Positions 4,450 through 15,271 of a stretch of 64,000 nucleotides of DNA are shown here, piece after piece. The DNA lies in assembly GCF_028561275.1 (NCBI RefSeq), contig NZ_JAQQTF010000018.1:62001-126000 (forward strand), written 5' to 3'. The notes under the pieces are model-generated. The model searched no databases and was not told the origin of the DNA. It saw nothing but the letters and a program-made list of their open reading frames with translations. The DNA comes from Aureisphaera galaxeae (GTDB taxonomy: Bacteria > Bacteroidota > Bacteroidia > Flavobacteriales > Flavobacteriaceae). The position numbers and the translations under genes were made by a program. The stretch's first letter is position 1. Each line of letters begins with the position of its first letter.

Positions 4450-6702
<2,253 letters not shown>

Positions 6703-6971: not shown

Positions 6972-7006
6972 TTGAATCCTTCGAATGAAAAAACTTTCTA
7001 ATTTTA
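6972..7006 (+). promoter_or_regulatory. Weak candidate promoter for the arginine leader
   Basis: TTG at 6972-6974 and TAATTTTA at 6999-7006 (one mismatch to TAnnTTTG) are 24 bases apart, slightly more than usual. If used, transcription would start almost at the leader ATG (7011). Confidence 0.3.
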
Positions 7007-7010
7007 CCCC

Positions 7011-7067
7011 ATGATTTTGCAACACTATAAAATAGTGCCCACAAAGCCCGTACGCCGTCGCCGCTAA
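7011..7067 (+). CDS. Arginine leader peptide, 18 aa
   Basis: ATG at 7011, stop TAA at 7065-7067. The peptide is MILQHYKIVPTKPVRRRR: the last four sense codons are CGC CGT CGC CGC, all arginine. It lies 230 bases upstream of an eight-gene arginine operon, exactly where an attenuation leader is expected. A run of codons for the end-product amino acid just before a stop is the hallmark of ribosome-mediated attenuation: scarce Arg-tRNA would stall the ribosome there and change downstream RNA folding. The peptide itself probably has no function. Not a homology call; it rests on position and codon content. Confidence 0.8.
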   Translation: MILQHYKIVPTKPVRRRR

Positions 7068-7260
7068 TACTACTACCTAGCAGCCACGAAGTATCACTAT
7101 TTTATAAAAATCAAATTGTCCACAACTTATTTCATATCACCTTTTACATTCCAAGTTATTTTTTCAAATAACAAAGGTTGTGTACGCCGTATATTCCCCC
7201 GTCGCCCGTAAGGGTGCGCTTCTATTCTAGGAACCCTAGGTGAGTCCGGTTCCATTTCTC
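7023..7260 (+). promoter_or_regulatory. Putative arginine attenuator (leader RNA with competing structures)
   Basis: Three features suggest a switching RNA. First, CACTAT/ATAGTG (7023-7037) forms a local hairpin inside the leader, but the overlapping TATAAAATAGTG (7026-7037) is also perfectly complementary over 12 bases to CACTATTTTATA (7095-7106), enclosing the Arg codons and stop. Second, CTAGG/CCTAG (7227-7231 with 7235-7239) competes with GGAACC/GGTTCC (7230-7235 with 7248-7253) for the same bases just before the first structural gene. Third, GTACGCCGT occurs twice (7050-7058 and 7182-7190). No U-rich tail follows the last hairpin, so the end point could be translational or Rho-linked rather than a simple terminator. 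Confidence 0.55.
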
Positions 7261-7300: not shown

Positions 7301-7918
7301 ATGGACATCATTATTGCCGATATATCGCATGCCAAGTATGCGGAAATCATTTGCAAAACCATAGAAGAGGCCGCTAACGTTCGGGGAACCGGGATTGCCA
7401 AAAGACATCCGGAGTATATCATTAAAAGGATGGAAAACGGTAACGCAGTAATTGCCCTAGATGGAGATGCCTTCGTGGGTTTTTGCTACATCGAAAAATG
7501 GGATCATGGCAAATTCGTAGCCAATTCGGGACTCATTGTGCATCCCGATTATCGCGGACAGGGTATTGCCAAACTGATTAAACAGAAAATCTTCGAGCAT
7601 TCCCGAACCAAATTCAAAAATGCCAAAGTGTTTAGTATTACCACAGGACTGGCCGTCATGAAGATGAACAGCGACCTAGGGTATAAACCCGTCACTTTCT
7701 CCGAATTAACCAAGGATCAATCCTTTTGGAAGGGATGCCAAACCTGTAAGAATTACGACGTATTGCAAAGAACCTCGCAAAGCATGTGCCTATGCACGGG
7801 CATGTTATACGATCCCAATGCCAAAAACGGTGAGGAGCAAAAAAAGATAAAACCGAAAGTTTTTAAACGATTAAAGAGCATAAAACACCAGCTCTTTCTA
7901 AAAAAGAATAAAAAATGA
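7301..7918 (+). CDS. GNAT acyltransferase, probable N-acylglutamate synthase of the arginine pathway
   Basis: 205 residues. An N-terminal GNAT domain (about 1-140) has the acyl-CoA loop VHPDYRGQGIAKLI near residues 81-94. Beyond it lies an unusual Cys cluster, CQTC then CLC (about residues 147-166), followed by a basic Lys-rich tail. It is the first gene of the arg operon and overlaps argG by ATGA. The operon has kinase, reductase, aminotransferase and deacylase genes but no classical argA or argJ, so this enzyme most likely acylates glutamate (acetyl- or succinyl-CoA) to start the pathway. That role comes from context; the GNAT fold alone does not specify the substrate. Confidence 0.75.
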   Translation: MDIIIADISHAKYAEIICKTIEEAANVRGTGIAKRHPEYIIKRMENGNAVIALDGDAFVGFCYIEKWDHGKFVANSGLIVHPDYRGQGIAKLIKQKIFEHSRTKFKNAKVFSITTGLAVMKMNSDLGYKPVTFSELTKDQSFWKGCQTCKNYDVLQRTSQSMCLCTGMLYDPNAKNGEEQKKIKPKVFKRLKSIKHQLFLKKNKK

Positions 7919-9096
7919 AAAAGCTTGTATTAGCCTACAGTGGAGGTCTGGACACCTCCTACTGCGCTGTATATTTCTCCAAAGACTTAGGGTACGAAGT
8001 CCATGCTGTGAGTGTAAACACGGGAGGATTTACGAAAGGGGAAATAAATAACATAGAAGAAAAAGCCTATACCATGGGCGTAGCTTCCTATAAGAACATT
8101 GATGCCATTACCAGCTACTACCAAAAGGTGGTAAAGTATCTTATTTATGGCAATGTCTTAAAAAACAATACCTATCCCTTATCGGTAAGTGCCGAAAGAA
8201 TCATTCAGGCCATGGAAATCATTGCCTATGCTAAAAAGATCAATGCAGATTGTATTGCGCATGGTAGTACGGGAGCAGGAAATGACCAAGTTCGATTCGA
8301 TGTAATTTTCCAGGCCTTGGCACCCGAGATTGAGATTTTAACGCCCATAAGAGATCAAAAATTAACGAGGCAAGAAGAGATCGAATACCTGAAATCTAAA
8401 GGCATTGAATTGTCTTGGGATAAAGCAAAATACTCCATTAACAAAGGACTTTGGGGCACTAGTGTAGGAGGTGCCGAAACCTTAACCTCGCACCTACCCT
8501 TGCCAAAAAAAGCCTATCCGTCGCAATTGGAAAAAGAGGGCAATGAAAAAGTAAAGCTCACCTTTTTAAAAGGGGTTCTTACCGCGATAAATGGGAAAGA
8601 ACAATTACCTCAAGAAAACATCGAAACCCTAAATGATTTGGCCTCTAAATATGCCATTGGCAGGGACATTCATGTCGGGGACACCATTGTAGGCATTAAA
8701 GGCAGGGTCGGTTTTGAAGCCGCAGCAGCCAGTATCATTATAAAAGCACATCATCTTTTGGAAAAGCACACCTTAACCAAATGGCAATTGCAGCATAAGG
8801 ACTATTTATCCAACTGGTATGGCACGCACCTTCATGAAGGTTTGTTTTTGGATCCAGTGATGCGAGATCTAGAAGCCTTTTTGGAAAATAGCCAACAGCA
8901 TGTTTCTGGAGATGTCATGGTCACTTTGAAGCCCTATCACTTTTCTCTGGATGGCATTACCTCAACCTACGATTTAATGAATTCTAATTTCGGCAGTTAC
9001 GGAGAAGAAAACAAAGGTTGGACGGCCAATGATGCCAAGGGATTCATCAAAATTTATGGAAATCAAAGTAAAATTTACCAAAGCATAACAGGATGA
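7915..9096 (+). CDS. argG: Argininosuccinate synthase
   Basis: 393 residues, normal family length. The ATP pyrophosphatase loop AYSGGLDTSY is at residues 7-16, and the family segment HGSTGAGNDQVRFD is present. The enzyme joins citrulline and aspartate with ATP to give argininosuccinate in the cytoplasm. Start and stop both overlap neighbours by ATGA (GNAT before, argC after). Downstream of an N-acylornithine carbamoyltransferase, its citrulline must come from deacylation by the argE product. Confidence 0.97.
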   Translation: MKKLVLAYSGGLDTSYCAVYFSKDLGYEVHAVSVNTGGFTKGEINNIEEKAYTMGVASYKNIDAITSYYQKVVKYLIYGNVLKNNTYPLSVSAERIIQAMEIIAYAKKINADCIAHGSTGAGNDQVRFDVIFQALAPEIEILTPIRDQKLTRQEEIEYLKSKGIELSWDKAKYSINKGLWGTSVGGAETLTSHLPLPKKAYPSQLEKEGNEKVKLTFLKGVLTAINGKEQLPQENIETLNDLASKYAIGRDIHVGDTIVGIKGRVGFEAAAASIIIKAHHLLEKHTLTKWQLQHKDYLSNWYGTHLHEGLFLDPVMRDLEAFLENSQQHVSGDVMVTLKPYHFSLDGITSTYDLMNSNFGSYGEENKGWTANDAKGFIKIYGNQSKIYQSITG

Positions 9097-10070
9097 TACA
9101 AGTAGGAATTATAGGAGGCGCAGGGTATACTGCGGGAGAATTGATACGAATCTTATTGTTTCATCAATATGTTTCCATCAATTTCGTATACAGCACCTCG
9201 AACGCAGGAAATGCGTTGAGTGACGTTCATCAGGATCTCATCGGGTCTACAGATTTGATCTTTACAAACACCATCAACCCTGAGATAGATGTCTTGTTCC
9301 TTTGCTTGGGGCATGGAAACTCCAAGGCATTTCTGGCGGAACACAGTTTCTCGTCAGACACCAAAATCATCGATTTAAGTAATGATTTTAGATTGATGGA
9401 GGACGCTATCTATCAAGGGAAGCAGTTCGTCTACGGATTGCCGGAATTGCAACAGGAGTACATCCAAAAAGCAGATTATATAGCCAATCCTGGTTGTTTT
9501 GCAACGGCCTTACAGCTGGCACTCTTGCCCTTGGCTTTTCACCAGAAGATCGAGGGTGCTATTCATGCAAATGCCGTGACGGGGGCCACTGGAGCCGGAA
9601 CATCCTTGTCCCCAACGACTCATTTTACATGGAGGGATAATAACTTCTCCCATTACAAGGTCTTCGAACACCAACATTTGGGCGAGATCCATCAGTCCAT
9701 GGATCAAGTGCAGTCGCGTTTTGATTCAGACATACACTTTATCCCCTGCAGGGGTAATTTTTCAAGGGGAATTTTTGCTACAGTCTATACCCAGTTTGAA
9801 GGCAGTTTGGAAGAAGCCCAAACGATGTATAGGGATTATTACCAAGATGCGACTTTCACGCATGTTTCCGATAAACCCCTTCACTTAAAACAGGTAGTGA
9901 ACACAAACAAATGTTTGCTGCACTTATTCAAACACAAAGATCAACTACTTATTACAAGTTGTATCGACAACTTGGTGAAAGGAGCCTCTGGTCAAGCCGT
10001 TCAGAACATGAACTTAATGTTCGGTCTTGAAGAAACGGAAGGATTACAATTAAAAGCAACCTATTTCTAA
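9093..10070 (+). CDS. argC: N-acyl-gamma-glutamyl-phosphate reductase
   Basis: 325 residues. The N-terminal nucleotide-binding motif GIIGGAGYTAGEL (5-17) and the catalytic Cys135 in ANPGCFATAL define ArgC. It reduces N-acylglutamyl phosphate to the semialdehyde with NADPH. It overlaps argG by four bases, and argD follows after 12 bases. Whether the acyl group is acetyl or succinyl is open (see argF'). Confidence 0.96.
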   Translation: MIQVGIIGGAGYTAGELIRILLFHQYVSINFVYSTSNAGNALSDVHQDLIGSTDLIFTNTINPEIDVLFLCLGHGNSKAFLAEHSFSSDTKIIDLSNDFRLMEDAIYQGKQFVYGLPELQQEYIQKADYIANPGCFATALQLALLPLAFHQKIEGAIHANAVTGATGAGTSLSPTTHFTWRDNNFSHYKVFEHQHLGEIHQSMDQVQSRFDSDIHFIPCRGNFSRGIFATVYTQFEGSLEEAQTMYRDYYQDATFTHVSDKPLHLKQVVNTNKCLLHLFKHKDQLLITSCIDNLVKGASGQAVQNMNLMFGLEETEGLQLKATYF

Positions 10071-10082
10071 AATCGATTAAAA

Positions 10083-11210
10083 ATGAATCTATTTAATGTA
10101 TATCCATTGTTCGATATCACACCCGTAAAAGGGAATGATGTCCACGTTTATGACGAGAAAGGAGCTGAATATCTGGACTTATATGGAGGCCACGCGGTAA
10201 TTTCTGTTGGGCATTCGCATCCTATCTATGTGAAGAACCTAAGCGATCAATTAAGTAAGTTGGGATTTTACAGCAACTCCATTCAAAACCCTTTACAACA
10301 GAGGTTAGCCAACGCTTTGGGAGCATTATCTGGCTGTGAAGACTATCAATTATTTTTGTGCAATTCTGGGGCTGAAGCCAATGAAAATGCTTTAAAATTA
10401 GCTTCTTTTCACACAGGCAAAAGCAAGGTGATCGCCTTTAAAAATGGCTTTCACGGAAGAACCTCAGCTGCCGTCGCTGCCACCGACAACCCAAACATTG
10501 TTGCACCGATCAATGCCCAACAGGCAGTAGACCTATTGCCCCTTGGGGACTTGGAGGCCTTAGAAAAATCGTTGCAGCACAAGGATGTATGCGCCATCAT
10601 TGTGGAATGCATCCAAGGGATTGGAGGATTGGATGAAAGCACCACAACATTTTATCAAGGTGTAGCAAAGCTTTCCAAAAAATATGGAGCATTGTTCATT
10701 GTGGATGAAGTTCAGTCTGGGTTTGGAAGAACGGGGGATTTCTTTGCCTTTCAGAAGCATGACATCCAACCCGATATTATTTCCATGGCCAAGGGAATGG
10801 GAAATGGTTTTCCTGTTGGAGGTATTCTTATTCATCCGGACATAGAAGCCTCTTTTGGCTTATTGGGCACCACCTTTGGCGGAAATCACCTCGCCTGTGC
10901 CGCTTCTTTGTCGGTATTGGAAGTTTTGAAACAAGATGAGCTTTTGAAAAATGTGAAAGACATCTCGGATTACTTCTTTAGCAAAGCACAAACCCTTCCC
11001 GAGATAAAAAACGTAAAAGGAAGAGGGCTTATGTTGGGATTGGAGTTCGATTTTCCTGTGGCCGATCTCCGAAAAAAACTCATTTACGAGCATCGCATTT
11101 TTACGGGAAGTGCCAAAAATCCGAAGCTTCTGCGGATTCTTCCGCCGTTGACCATTCAGAAGAAACACATAGATCACTTTTTTAACGCCTTGAAAAAAGC
11201 ACTACCATGA
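10083..11210 (+). CDS. argD: N-acylornithine aminotransferase
   Basis: 375 residues, class III PLP aminotransferase. Visible are NSGAEAN (94-100), FHGRTSA (123-129), the cofactor Asp208 in FIVDEVQSGFGRTG and the PLP Lys237 in SMAKGMGNG. It converts the N-acylglutamate semialdehyde to N-acylornithine using glutamate. It overlaps argF' by four bases. The operon position between argC and the carbamoyltransferase favours the arginine pathway over catabolic ornithine transamination. Confidence 0.95.
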   Translation: MNLFNVYPLFDITPVKGNDVHVYDEKGAEYLDLYGGHAVISVGHSHPIYVKNLSDQLSKLGFYSNSIQNPLQQRLANALGALSGCEDYQLFLCNSGAEANENALKLASFHTGKSKVIAFKNGFHGRTSAAVAATDNPNIVAPINAQQAVDLLPLGDLEALEKSLQHKDVCAIIVECIQGIGGLDESTTTFYQGVAKLSKKYGALFIVDEVQSGFGRTGDFFAFQKHDIQPDIISMAKGMGNGFPVGGILIHPDIEASFGLLGTTFGGNHLACAASLSVLEVLKQDELLKNVKDISDYFFSKAQTLPEIKNVKGRGLMLGLEFDFPVADLRKKLIYEHRIFTGSAKNPKLLRILPPLTIQKKHIDHFFNALKKALP

Positions 11211-12145
11211 AATCCTATATAAACATACACGATTTGGGAACGATTCCCGAAGCCATTGAAAAAGCCATTGCACTGAAAGAAAAGCCACATGCTCATCCTT
11301 CGTTGGGAAAGCACAAGACACTGGTCATGCTATTTTTCAACGCTAGTTTACGAACCCGATTAAGCACCGAAAAAGCGGCTCGAAACTTAGGTATGGATGC
11401 CATGGTACTAAACCTTAGCGATGCATGGAATCTGGAATATGAGGACGGCAGTATCATGAACCTTAACACCGCAGAACATGTAAAGGAAGCTGCCAAGGTG
11501 ATTTCGCAGTATGCGGATATCATTGCGATTAGGGCCTTTCCTAGCCTGAGTGACAAACAAAAAGACGAAGCAGAACAGGTGTTGACCAACTTTGCCAAGT
11601 ATGCCACGGTTCCTGTCGTGAACTTAGAAAGTGCAACGGCACATCCCCTACAGGCCTTTGCCGATGCTATTACCGTAGAAGAATTCAAAATACGAAAGCG
11701 ACCCAAAGTGGTTTTGTCATGGGCGCCACATCCTAAGGCATTGCCGCAATCGGTAGCGAATTCTTTTGTGCGAATGATGAAGGAACTAGATATAGAATTC
11801 TCCATCACGCATCCGGAAGGATATGAGTTGCATCCCAAAATCACGGAAGGGATTCCCGTTCATTACGATCAGGAAGAGGCATTAGAAAATGCCGACTTCG
11901 TATACACTAAGAACTGGAGTAGTTATTCGGACTATGGACAAATCCTGTCTACAGATTCCAACTGGATGATTACCCAAAATAAGTTGGGAAAAGCAAAGTT
12001 TATGCATTGCCTTCCCGTACGAAGGAATGTAGTGGTGGAAGATGCTGTGTTGGATGGAGAAAATTCCATTGTTATAGAACAAGCCAACAACCGAACCTAT
12101 GCTGCTCAATTTGTACTTAAGAACATCCTTGAAACTATATCATGA
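11207..12145 (+). CDS. argF': N-acyl-L-ornithine carbamoyltransferase (AOTC/SOTC family)
   Basis: 312 residues. The carbamoyl phosphate motif is SLRTR (47-51) rather than the STRTR of ordinary ornithine transcarbamylase, and HCLPVRRN is at 267-274. Both match the branch that acts on acylated ornithine (N-acetyl in Xanthomonas, N-succinyl in Bacteroides). The published discriminating position, Glu92 in acetyl enzymes and Pro90 in succinyl enzymes, aligns by eye with Ala89 here (NLNTAEHV), so the acyl preference cannot be read off. It overlaps argD and argB by ATGA. Product: N-acylcitrulline. Confidence 0.93.
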   Translation: MKSYINIHDLGTIPEAIEKAIALKEKPHAHPSLGKHKTLVMLFFNASLRTRLSTEKAARNLGMDAMVLNLSDAWNLEYEDGSIMNLNTAEHVKEAAKVISQYADIIAIRAFPSLSDKQKDEAEQVLTNFAKYATVPVVNLESATAHPLQAFADAITVEEFKIRKRPKVVLSWAPHPKALPQSVANSFVRMMKELDIEFSITHPEGYELHPKITEGIPVHYDQEEALENADFVYTKNWSSYSDYGQILSTDSNWMITQNKLGKAKFMHCLPVRRNVVVEDAVLDGENSIVIEQANNRTYAAQFVLKNILETIS

Positions 12146-12918
12146 AAACACTGAAAGTTGTAAAAATAGGAGGAAATATCATTGACGATGCCGCAAAACT
12201 AAACCCCTTTTTAGCCTCCTTTGCCGCCATAAAGGGTCCAAAAATCCTAGTCCATGGAGGTGGAAAATTAGCGACACAATGGATCGAGAAAATGAATGTC
12301 CCCGTTAAAATGATCGATGGCCGAAGAGTGACCAATCTACAAACGCTGGACGTCGTTACCATGATCTATGGTGGGAAAATAAACAAATCCATCGTGGCAC
12401 AATTACAGGCAAACGATTGCAATGCTTTGGGTTTTTCCGGTGCCGATGGAAATACCATCCTTGCCCAGAAAAGACCGATACGGGATGTAGATTACGGATT
12501 TGTGGGTGATATAATCAGGGTAAATACAGAAGTGATAAAGCCATTGCTGTCGCAAGATATTACCCTTGCTTTCTGTGCCCTATCCCATGACGGTAAAGGT
12601 CAACTTCTCAATACCAATGCAGATACTATAGCATCAGAGTTAGCCACTGCGTTATCTAAAGATTTTGAGGTGGAACTGTATTACTGTTTTGAGAAGAAAG
12701 GAGTCCTTAGAAATGTGGACGATGATGATTCAGTAATCGAATGCATTGACGCATCAGCCTATAAGAACTTGCGCGCGCAGAAAATCATAGCAGACGGAAT
12801 GATTCCTAAGCTCACCAATTGTTTTGATGCCCTCGATAAAAATGTACATAAGGTTTGCATCGGGAATACTGGTATGTTGTTTCAACCGAATTCAAAATTC
12901 ACAAACGTAATAAAATGA
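12142..12918 (+). CDS. argB: N-acylglutamate kinase
   Basis: 258 residues, amino acid kinase fold. The N-terminal VKIGGNIIDD (7-16) and LVHGGGKLA (about 36-44) are the phosphate-binding segments, and a C-terminal KIIADGMIPKL segment matches the family. It phosphorylates N-acylglutamate and is the usual feedback point. It overlaps both argF' and argE by ATGA. Confidence 0.95.
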   Translation: MKTLKVVKIGGNIIDDAAKLNPFLASFAAIKGPKILVHGGGKLATQWIEKMNVPVKMIDGRRVTNLQTLDVVTMIYGGKINKSIVAQLQANDCNALGFSGADGNTILAQKRPIRDVDYGFVGDIIRVNTEVIKPLLSQDITLAFCALSHDGKGQLLNTNADTIASELATALSKDFEVELYYCFEKKGVLRNVDDDDSVIECIDASAYKNLRAQKIIADGMIPKLTNCFDALDKNVHKVCIGNTGMLFQPNSKFTNVIK

Positions 12919-13997
12919 CACAAGAGAAATTAACTCAAAACGCCATATCGCTGCTCAAGCAATTAATCGCGACCCCGTCGTTTTCTTCTGAAGAAGATGG
13001 AACTGCCTTACGTATTGAAAAGTGGTTTCAGGCGCACAATGTTGCCTATGAAAGGACACAAAATAATGTTTGGGCCGTAAATATGCACTTCGATCGCAAC
13101 AAGCCCACATTATTATTGAATTCTCACCACGACACGGTTCGTCCCAATAGTGGGTATACGAAGGATCCCTTCAAAGCAATTGAAGAAAATGGAAAATTGT
13201 ATGGCCTGGGAAGCAATGATGCCGGAGGTTGTTTGGTTTCCTTGTTGGCTACCTTCATTCATTTTTATTCGAAAGAAGACTTGCGATACAATTTGGTAAT
13301 GGTGGCCTCTGCTGAAGAAGAAAGTAGCGGGCCGAATGGACTGAATAGCATGCTTTCCGTTATTCCGGACATAGACGTGGCCATTGTTGGGGAACCTACC
13401 TTAATGCAATTGGCCGTGGCTGAAAAAGGACTTGTCGTGTTCGATGCCGAAGTACAAGGAACTCCAGGTCATGCTGCACATCCCAATAACGATAACGCCA
13501 TTTATAACACCATTGAGGTTCTTGAGTGGTTTCAGGAGTATAGATTTGAGAAAACCTCTCCTACGTTGGGTGATGTAAAAATGACGGTGACACAAATTGA
13601 AGCAGGGAAACAGCACAATGCGATTCCGGCGAAGGTGAATTTGGTAATAGATGTACGTGTAAATGATCAATATAGCAATTCTGAGATAGCGCATATTTTG
13701 GAGAAGGAGTCTCCATGTTCCCCTATCGTTCCCAGAAGCCTTCGATTAAATTCATCTTCCATTCCCCTGGATCATGAATTGGTACAATCTGGAATTTCCT
13801 TGGGAAGAAAAACCTATGGCTCGCCTACCTTATCGGACCAATCGGTGCTTCAATGCCCTTCATTAAAAATGGGGCCCGGGGATAGCACACGATCGCATAC
13901 GGCCGATGAATTTATTTACCTCCGTGAAATCGAAGAGGGCATTGATATATACATTCAGTTATTGGAAAAAATACTATTTAAAAAAGAAGAGAAATGA
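12915..13997 (+). CDS. argE: M20-family deacylase, N-acylcitrulline/N-acylornithine hydrolase
   Basis: 360 residues from ATG 12915, whose ATGA overlaps the argB stop; a longer frame opens at 12855 inside argB but the overlap start fits the operon pattern. Metal site residues of the M20 family are visible: LNSHHDT (69-74), GSNDAGG (99-105, bridging Asp102) and SAEEES (132-137, catalytic and metal Glu). The enzyme removes the acyl group. In this pathway the substrate is N-acylcitrulline, giving citrulline for argG. Confidence 0.92.
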   Translation: MTQEKLTQNAISLLKQLIATPSFSSEEDGTALRIEKWFQAHNVAYERTQNNVWAVNMHFDRNKPTLLLNSHHDTVRPNSGYTKDPFKAIEENGKLYGLGSNDAGGCLVSLLATFIHFYSKEDLRYNLVMVASAEEESSGPNGLNSMLSVIPDIDVAIVGEPTLMQLAVAEKGLVVFDAEVQGTPGHAAHPNNDNAIYNTIEVLEWFQEYRFEKTSPTLGDVKMTVTQIEAGKQHNAIPAKVNLVIDVRVNDQYSNSEIAHILEKESPCSPIVPRSLRLNSSSIPLDHELVQSGISLGRKTYGSPTLSDQSVLQCPSLKMGPGDSTRSHTADEFIYLREIEEGIDIYIQLLEKILFKKEEK

Positions 13998-15271
13998 AAC
14001 TTTGGGAAAAAGGATTTGAAATAGACAAACAAATTGAACAATTCACCGTCGGGAATGACCGAGAAATAGATCTTCATATTGCAAAGTATGATATTGCAGC
14101 CTCCTTGGCCCACGCCAAAATGTTGGGTAAAACGGGTATCATATCTCAAACAGAATCCGAACAACTACAAGAAGGTTTGCTAGCGCTAGCAAAACAGGTG
14201 GACTCCAAAACCTTTGTGATTGAGGCACAGTATGAAGATGTGCATTCGAAAATCGAAGCTGAACTAATTCAGAAATATGGCGATGTTGGCAAAAAGATAC
14301 ATACCGCTCGATCCAGAAACGATCAGGTGTTGGTGGCCCTTCAATTGTATTACAAAGAAAACCTGCTTGCCATAAAAACGTTGACCAAAAGCTTCTTCGA
14401 AACCTTATTGAATCTTGCCGAAACCCATAAAGATACTTTGTTGCCTGGGTATACACACTTGCAAGTTGCTATGCCGTCTTCCTTCGGACTTTGGTTTTCT
14501 GCCTATGCCGAAGTTTTAATCGATGATGTGCAATTACTGAATGCTGCCTTAAGAACGGTAGATCAAAATCCGTTGGGATCGGCGGCTGGGTATGGTAGCT
14601 CCTTCTCCATCGACAGGGAATTCACGACGAAAGAAATGGGCTTCCAAACCCTTAAGTACAATGTGGTGGCCGCACAAATGGGTCGGGGGAAAAACGAAAG
14701 GACCCTTGCTGCTGTCTTGGGAAGTTTGGCCAATACCCTATCGCGTTTTGCCATGGACATTTGTTTGTATTTGAGTCAGAATTTCGGATTCATTTCCTTT
14801 CCAGATACCTTGACCACGGGTAGTAGCATTATGCCTCATAAAAAGAATCCCGATGTGTTTGAACTGATCCGAGGGAAATGCAATAAAATTCAGGCGTTGC
14901 AGACCGAAATGATTTTAATTACCAACAATCTTCCCAGTGGGTATCATAGGGACTTTCAGCTATTGAAAGAAAACATGATCGGGGCCATTGAGGAGATGAA
15001 AGCCACACTGTCCATATTCAATCATTGTATGCAACAGATTCAGGTTGTTGATATTGATATGAATGACGAAAAGTACAAATACCTTTTCACAGTAGATGCT
15101 ATCAATTCGCTGGTTGAAAGTGGAACTAGCTTTAGGGAAGCTTATAAAAAAGTAGGAACCCAAATTGAAGAAGGGACCTACCGATCGGGACCTCCGAAAA
15201 AGCATACACATATGGGAAGTACTGGGAATCTCTGTTTACAGGAAATTCGTAGGAAATGGGACAAGGTATAA
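13994..15271 (+). CDS. argH: Argininosuccinate lyase
   Basis: 425 residues, a little shorter than the common 450-470. The fumarase-superfamily signature GSSIMPHKKNP is at about 276-286, and HTARSRNDQV near residue 100 is the substrate-binding segment. It splits argininosuccinate into arginine and fumarate and ends the operon. It overlaps argE by ATGA. No strong terminator follows; transcription may continue into the small gene at 15386, which however has its own promoter. Confidence 0.96.
   Translation: MKLWEKGFEIDKQIEQFTVGNDREIDLHIAKYDIAASLAHAKMLGKTGIISQTESEQLQEGLLALAKQVDSKTFVIEAQYEDVHSKIEAELIQKYGDVGKKIHTARSRNDQVLVALQLYYKENLLAIKTLTKSFFETLLNLAETHKDTLLPGYTHLQVAMPSSFGLWFSAYAEVLIDDVQLLNAALRTVDQNPLGSAAGYGSSFSIDREFTTKEMGFQTLKYNVVAAQMGRGKNERTLAAVLGSLANTLSRFAMDICLYLSQNFGFISFPDTLTTGSSIMPHKKNPDVFELIRGKCNKIQALQTEMILITNNLPSGYHRDFQLLKENMIGAIEEMKATLSIFNHCMQQIQVVDIDMNDEKYKYLFTVDAINSLVESGTSFREAYKKVGTQIEEGTYRSGPPKKHTHMGSTGNLCLQEIRRKWDKV

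Follow-up and report, generated by a model that had tools for sequence, protein, structure and literature searches.

Two arginine-rich leader peptides in series upstream of the arginine operon of Aureisphaera galaxeae: a candidate arginine-responsive RNA conserved in Flavobacteriaceae

How is arginine biosynthesis controlled in bacteria that lack the arginine repressor? The textbook mode of control is repression by ArgR, a DNA-binding protein. ArgR (PF01316) was detected in none of 61 Flavobacteriaceae genomes, that of Aureisphaera galaxeae included, while the positive controls, Bacteroides among them, gave matches; an earlier note on this DNA had pointed out that attenuation by arginine codons would depart from this textbook mode. 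The window, that is, the whole stretch of DNA analysed, comprises 64,000 nucleotides of A. galaxeae (contig NZ_JAQQTF010000018.1, positions 62,001 to 126,000 of the forward strand). It contains an arg operon of eight genes (7301-15271) in the order GNAT, argG, argC, argD, argF', argB, argE and argH, of which five were identified by Pfam and three (argC, argE and argH) by eye (Table 1). On the minus strand, a gene resembling catalase-peroxidase (katG by eye; 4450-6654) is oriented divergently from the arg leader.

Table 1. Features of the arg leader and operon, in window positions; an asterisk in a peptide denotes the stop codon.
Feature	Positions	Strand	Evidence or remark
Bacteroidota-type -7 promoter box, TAATTTTA	6999..7006	+	12 nt before leader-1 ATG
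Leader peptide 1, MILQHYKIVPTKPVRRRR*	7011..7067	+	ORF reading; conservation in relatives
P1 5' arm, UAUAAAAUAGUG; long-range stem, within leader-1 codons	7026..7037	+	coevolution scan; arm-swap test
P1 3' arm, CACUAUUUUAUA; just 5' of leader-2 start codon	7095..7106	+	coevolution scan; arm-swap test
Leader peptide 2, (L/M)STTYFISPFTFQVIFSNNKGCVRRIFPRRP*; TTG start, 31 codons	7116..7211	+	frame, start position and indels in relatives
Hairpin H0, GUUAUUU(UUUC)AAAUAAC; in leader 2, just before first Arg pair	7155..7172	+	compensatory changes
Leader-2 first Arg-codon pair, CGC CGT	7185..7190	+	
Leader-2 second Arg-codon pair, CGT CGC	7200..7205	+	
Hairpin H1, CGCCC(GUAA)GGGUG; overlaps leader-2 end and stop codon	7203..7216	+	77 sequences compared; core pairs nearly invariant
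Hairpin H2, GGAACC-CUA-GG(UGAGU)CC-GGUUCC	7230..7253	+	outer stem covaries; conserved pentaloop UGNGU
GNAT acetyltransferase, first gene of operon	7301..7918	+	PF00583
argG, argininosuccinate synthase	7915..9096	+	PF00764 and PF20979
argC-like	9093..10070	+	sequence by eye
argD-type class-III aminotransferase	10083..11210	+	PF00202
argF'-type transcarbamylase	11207..12145	+	PF02729 and PF00185
argB, amino-acid kinase	12142..12918	+	PF00696
argE-like deacylase	12915..13997	+	sequence by eye; start codon inferred
argH-like lyase	13994..15271	+	sequence by eye

The earlier note had drawn attention to a short ORF with terminal arginine codons in front of this operon. The ORF is as described: 18 codons at 7011-7067 (ATG ATT TTG CAA CAC TAT AAA ATA GTG CCC ACA AAG CCC GTA CGC CGT CGC CGC TAA), 233 nt upstream of the first gene. 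The comparison that the note had proposed, a search of relatives for a short ORF at the same place with terminal Arg codons and variable flanks, gave a strongly positive result. The sample consisted of 80 loci that encode relatives of the first-gene GNAT protein and for which upstream DNA was available; leader 1 was counted over the 76 of these with a placeable leader-2 start. In 71 of the 76, an ATG ORF of 17-24 codons occupies the same place, and its Arg codons, mostly CGC or CGT, are clustered within the last seven codons, while the body of the peptide varies from lineage to lineage. In the genes of the window, by contrast, CGC is among the rarer Arg codons.

The position of the promoter is conserved as well. 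A TAnnTTT -7 box is present within 20 nt before the leader-1 ATG in 59 of the 71 relatives, mostly at -12/-13, compared with only 1-4 of 71 in equal control windows further upstream. Since the box sits at -12/-13, the 5' end of the arg mRNA is predicted to lie at or beside the leader-1 ATG, so that leader 1 is probably leaderless or nearly so.

The gap of ∼230 nt between leader 1 and the operon holds a second Arg-rich leader ORF that was overlooked in the earlier note. Leader 2 begins with TTG at 7116, terminates at 7209-7211 and has the C-terminal end VRRIFPRRP*. Over the 25 codons before the RRP end, its frame is free of stops in all 80 relatives, in contrast with the other two frames, each of which is interrupted in 76 of 80. 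The starts cluster 29 codons upstream of the final Arg codon (29 TTG, 20 GTG and 7 ATG), with 14 more lying one codon off, and indels in the aligned region are multiples of three. Taken as comparative data, these patterns are strong evidence that leader 2 is coding and that in most relatives its start codon is a weak one. The peptide upstream of the Arg clusters is weakly conserved and the RRP* ending is common, with leader 2 of several relatives (e.g. L003, L026, L031 and L036) continuing past the proline (PLG...). The spacing from leader 1 to leader 2 is 39-51 nt in 68 of 71 loci.

The two leaders are connected by RNA structure. Coevolution was scanned over 820 pairs of segments by comparing the pairing energy within a locus with that obtained when one arm is swapped between loci. 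The relatives are not independent samples and their relatedness was only partly corrected for, and the statistics are to be read with that limit: the top two pairs were P1 (z -10.3) and H0 (z -10.2), with H2 at z -4.4; in the arm-swap test, P1 scored -10.2 vs -7.1 kcal/mol (0 of 2000 permutations); and compensatory change in H0 amounted to 45 cells vs 12 in shuffles. In P1, early leader-1 codons pair with a segment that lies 28-12 nt ahead of the leader-2 start codon. The core of H1 is so nearly invariant in the 77 sequences that it lies beyond covariation testing. Pairings of H1 GGGU with H2 GUCC, and of CGCC with GGUG, were considered by eye and dropped for want of covariation.

A leader-peptide attenuator combines short upstream ORFs that carry clustered codons for the end product with RNA structures that exclude one another. 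Of these, the ORFs are present and are coding by comparison, and P1, H0, H1 and H2 are conserved; among the 820 segment pairs, no alternative (antiterminator) pairing was detected, only P1, H0 and H2 emerging besides overlapping or neighbouring segments. The arg leader is thus read, with good confidence on comparative grounds, as an arginine-responsive RNA in which two leader peptides in series act by ribosome stalling. Control by an Arg-codon leader peptide, as put forward in the earlier note, is supported, with the addition of a second leader in series.

In the proposed mechanism, scarcity of charged tRNA-Arg would stall a ribosome late in leader 1, and the footprint of this ribosome, together with any ribosome queued behind it, would keep P1 open and allow leader 2 to be initiated. 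A ribosome stalled in turn at the Arg codons of leader 2 would keep H0 and/or H1 from folding, which would allow expression of the arg operon. With ample arginine, the ribosome would exit leader 1, P1 would close and leader 2 would be poorly translated. The RNA would then be lost through premature termination, most likely Rho-dependent in the G-poor, untranslated spacer, or through decay. The direction of the response, in which starvation turns the operon on, is what we infer for the arg leader. The direction of gating by P1 could be the opposite, because a ribosome that occupies the earliest Arg codons in leader 1 barely reaches the 5' arm of P1.

The output step may depend on Rho, on a weak terminator or on the stability of the RNA. 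The term attenuation, used in the earlier note, holds in the sense of an Arg-codon leader but finds no support as far as an intrinsic terminator is concerned, as a scan of the arg leader found no canonical terminator, giving two weak sites vs 1.5 in shuffles. H2 has no U tract and is not a canonical terminator. The RNA between the leaders contains 46% U, 16% C and 7% G, a composition that suits Rho-dependent termination. A classic alternative is that H1 is itself a weak intrinsic terminator, prevented from folding by a ribosome that has stalled at the RRP codons. In favour of this, H1 scored as terminator-like, is rich in GC and overlaps with the stop of leader 2, but it has only 4-5 base pairs and lacks a real U run in its tail in most relatives, and the scan count lies within that of shuffles. 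In addition, in the Trp leader that this genome also carries (MQMNNTHTWWWKNLRRMS*; L163, G000:C15:8146-8266, minus strand), the Trp codons (WWW) precede a canonical terminator, a strong stem with UUUUUU. A terminator role for H1 is credible but unlikely. The Trp leader scores 47.2 bits against the Bacteroid-trp family, just under the cut-off of 49.

A second alternative assigns regulation to leader 2 with H1 and H2, leaving leader 1 as a minor or auxiliary ORF of some lineages. Several loci have leader 2 without leader 1 (L029, L030 and L072, and by eye also L056, L069 and L071), and it is because some relatives carry leader 2 alone that leader 1 is, by this comparison, dispensable in some lineages and not essential everywhere. 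In L056, L069 and L071, the one leader has an ATG start and the ending RRRP*, a form suggesting that leader 2 may be the older of the pair and leader 1 a later addition. This alternative draws on the presence of leader 2 and of its 3' hairpins (the R1 element, below) in lineages without leader 1, and on the resemblance, by eye, of its two spaced Arg clusters to the single leaders of other orders. In contrast, the 71 loci counted above retain leader 1 together with P1, the Arg codons, the spacing and the place of the promoter, and a role for leader 2 without leader 1 is doubtful as a general account.

A third alternative, nascent-peptide arrest, holds that the Arg-rich end or the proline before the stop (RRP*) senses free arginine or a pathway intermediate, not uncharged tRNA-Arg; TnaC and SpeFL are examples of ligand-responsive arrest of this kind. 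The wide conservation of RRP* at the end of leader 2 is in its favour. However, the proline does not precede the stop in the several relatives that continue past it, the CCN codon is needed by H1 as well, the leaders of other orders end in RV*, RA*, RI* or RR*, and the weak conservation of the peptide before the Arg clusters is a further point against it, making arrest by the peptide improbable. Finally, unrelated small genes or chance Arg codons deserve next to no credence: short ORFs are common and in other orders only 13 of 50 loci reach p≤0.05, but the frame, start, Arg codons and spacing are kept in ∼80 relatives, which refutes chance for Flavobacteriaceae.

The distribution of the two-leader RNA was followed with R1, a covariance model of H1 and H2 that covers the final ∼60 nt of the leader RNA. 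In A. galaxeae, R1 matches the arg leader (E 1.1e-12); the next matches (E 0.4 and 0.8) are no better than chance and were set aside. R1 is present in 91 of 151 Flavobacteriaceae genera and in single copy in 90 of these; the second copy, in G394, lies antisense within an unrelated gene and was discounted. Among the first 20 genera without R1, 16 lack argG. Of the four that have it, three carry other Arg-rich leaders by eye, and the fourth was represented by a stretch examined only up to the GNAT gene. No relevant Rfam family was found, either at the gathering threshold across the window or at permissive E-values in the leader region.

Flavobacteriaceae without R1 display leaders of other kinds. 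The genus g62 (L095-L102) has a different short ORF 5' of GNAT, e.g. MNKTSLHITSLSRTNRPTTSPEVRML*, with scattered CGG and AGA codons and a strikingly conserved ACTTCTCCCGAAGTACGGATGCTAT. In L171 and L172, from R1-less genera, the leader 5' of argG ends in VRFPQTRP* or VRFPQNRP* with a short GC hairpin at the stop; the first gene looks different, and an extra conserved stretch reads SRRRFRVNS*.

Beyond the family, ArgR (PF01316) was found in 8 of 149 genomes of the class, and in four of these (G236, G276, G309 and G340) it adjoins argG by coordinates, suggesting that repressor and leader control may be exchanged locally. Of 50 arg loci from genomes of other orders that lack ArgR, 33 contain a short ORF whose terminal part carries three or more Arg codons, but only 13 of the 50 are significant singly at p≤0.05. 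Of the four ArgR-bearing arg loci, one passes by the Arg-leader score and none by p. There is thus a clear trend for Arg leaders across the ArgR-less orders of the class, short of proof for each locus.

Such Arg-rich leaders stand before GNAT-argG in L120, L123, L125, L135, L131, L138, L154, L156, L158, L169 and others, often with two Arg clusters a few residues apart (e.g. RPVFYIRR*, RRPYMPRA* and RRRRYFFRV*). Look-alike leaders in different genera (L120/L123, L125/L135, L154/L156/L149 and L158/L169) back the trend. The leaders of these other orders look unrelated to those of Flavobacteriaceae. Loops of the form U-R-N-G-Y follow the leaders of other orders in 10 of 44 five-base-loop hairpins vs ∼1.4 expected, a post hoc count made in the same loci in which the pattern was noticed. 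These hairpins, 3' of the leader in L120, L123, L127, L130, L134, L136, L148, L159 and L169, resemble the UGNGU loop of H2.

Taken together, the two-leader RNA appears to replace ArgR in Flavobacteriaceae. The fullest version of this reading is that one leader peptide regulates another: leader 1, leaderless and rich in Arg, would control through P1 whether the non-AUG leader 2 is initiated. The result would be a two-step sensor that uses the conserved pentaloop hairpin, not a terminator, for its output and that takes the place of ArgR across much of Bacteroidota; the chances that this version is right or wrong seem to be evenly balanced. Flavobacteriaceae are abundant in marine and soil environments and initiate translation largely without Shine-Dalgarno pairing. 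If the reading holds, a whole family without ArgR would rely on a conserved two-peptide RNA sensor, against the textbook picture of ArgR repression, and two leader peptides would be coupled by a coevolving RNA stem, a case that rests on comparative evidence. The control of arginine synthesis in Bacteroidota becomes directly testable, with other ArgR-less orders often carrying their own Arg-rich leaders at the arg operon.

The main texts of the open-access literature yielded no arginine leader in front of an arg operon in Bacteroidota, no stem-linked tandem leaders and no such RNA element. Strong clues for leader-peptide attenuation 5' of amino-acid operons have been described in Flavobacterium psychrophilum (PMC9723704), where the main text names no arginine leader, tandem leaders or R1-type RNA. 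The Bacteroid-trp RNA, an Rfam family (RF01692; PMC2864571), is likewise a leader-peptide element of Bacteroidota, but it serves another amino acid with one peptide and a strong intrinsic terminator; it was rejected as a parent family, since no common fold was found. In Salmonella, consecutive Arg codons in the leader ORF orf34 of speF sense arginine, and Rho-dependent termination is involved (PMC6386406). The speF leader, compared here by description, differs in that it belongs to putrescine synthesis in Gammaproteobacteria and has one leader. Arg codons of the leader peptide rbfL of S. aureus sense arginine limitation (PMC13009471); there, the rare codons AGA and AGG are used, a biofilm regulator is blocked at the level of translation and stalling means OFF. 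ArgR controls the same genes as the arg leader is proposed to and is found in few Bacteroidota. With the leader peptides of amino-acid operons in Proteobacteria (trp, his, leu, thr and ilv), the arg leader shares a short ORF rich in cognate codons just after the promoter, a position before a biosynthetic operon and conserved hairpins. In contrast to these, no canonical U-tract terminator was found in the arg leader, which is dedicated to arginine and consists of two serial peptides joined by a covarying stem, the second with a non-AUG start.
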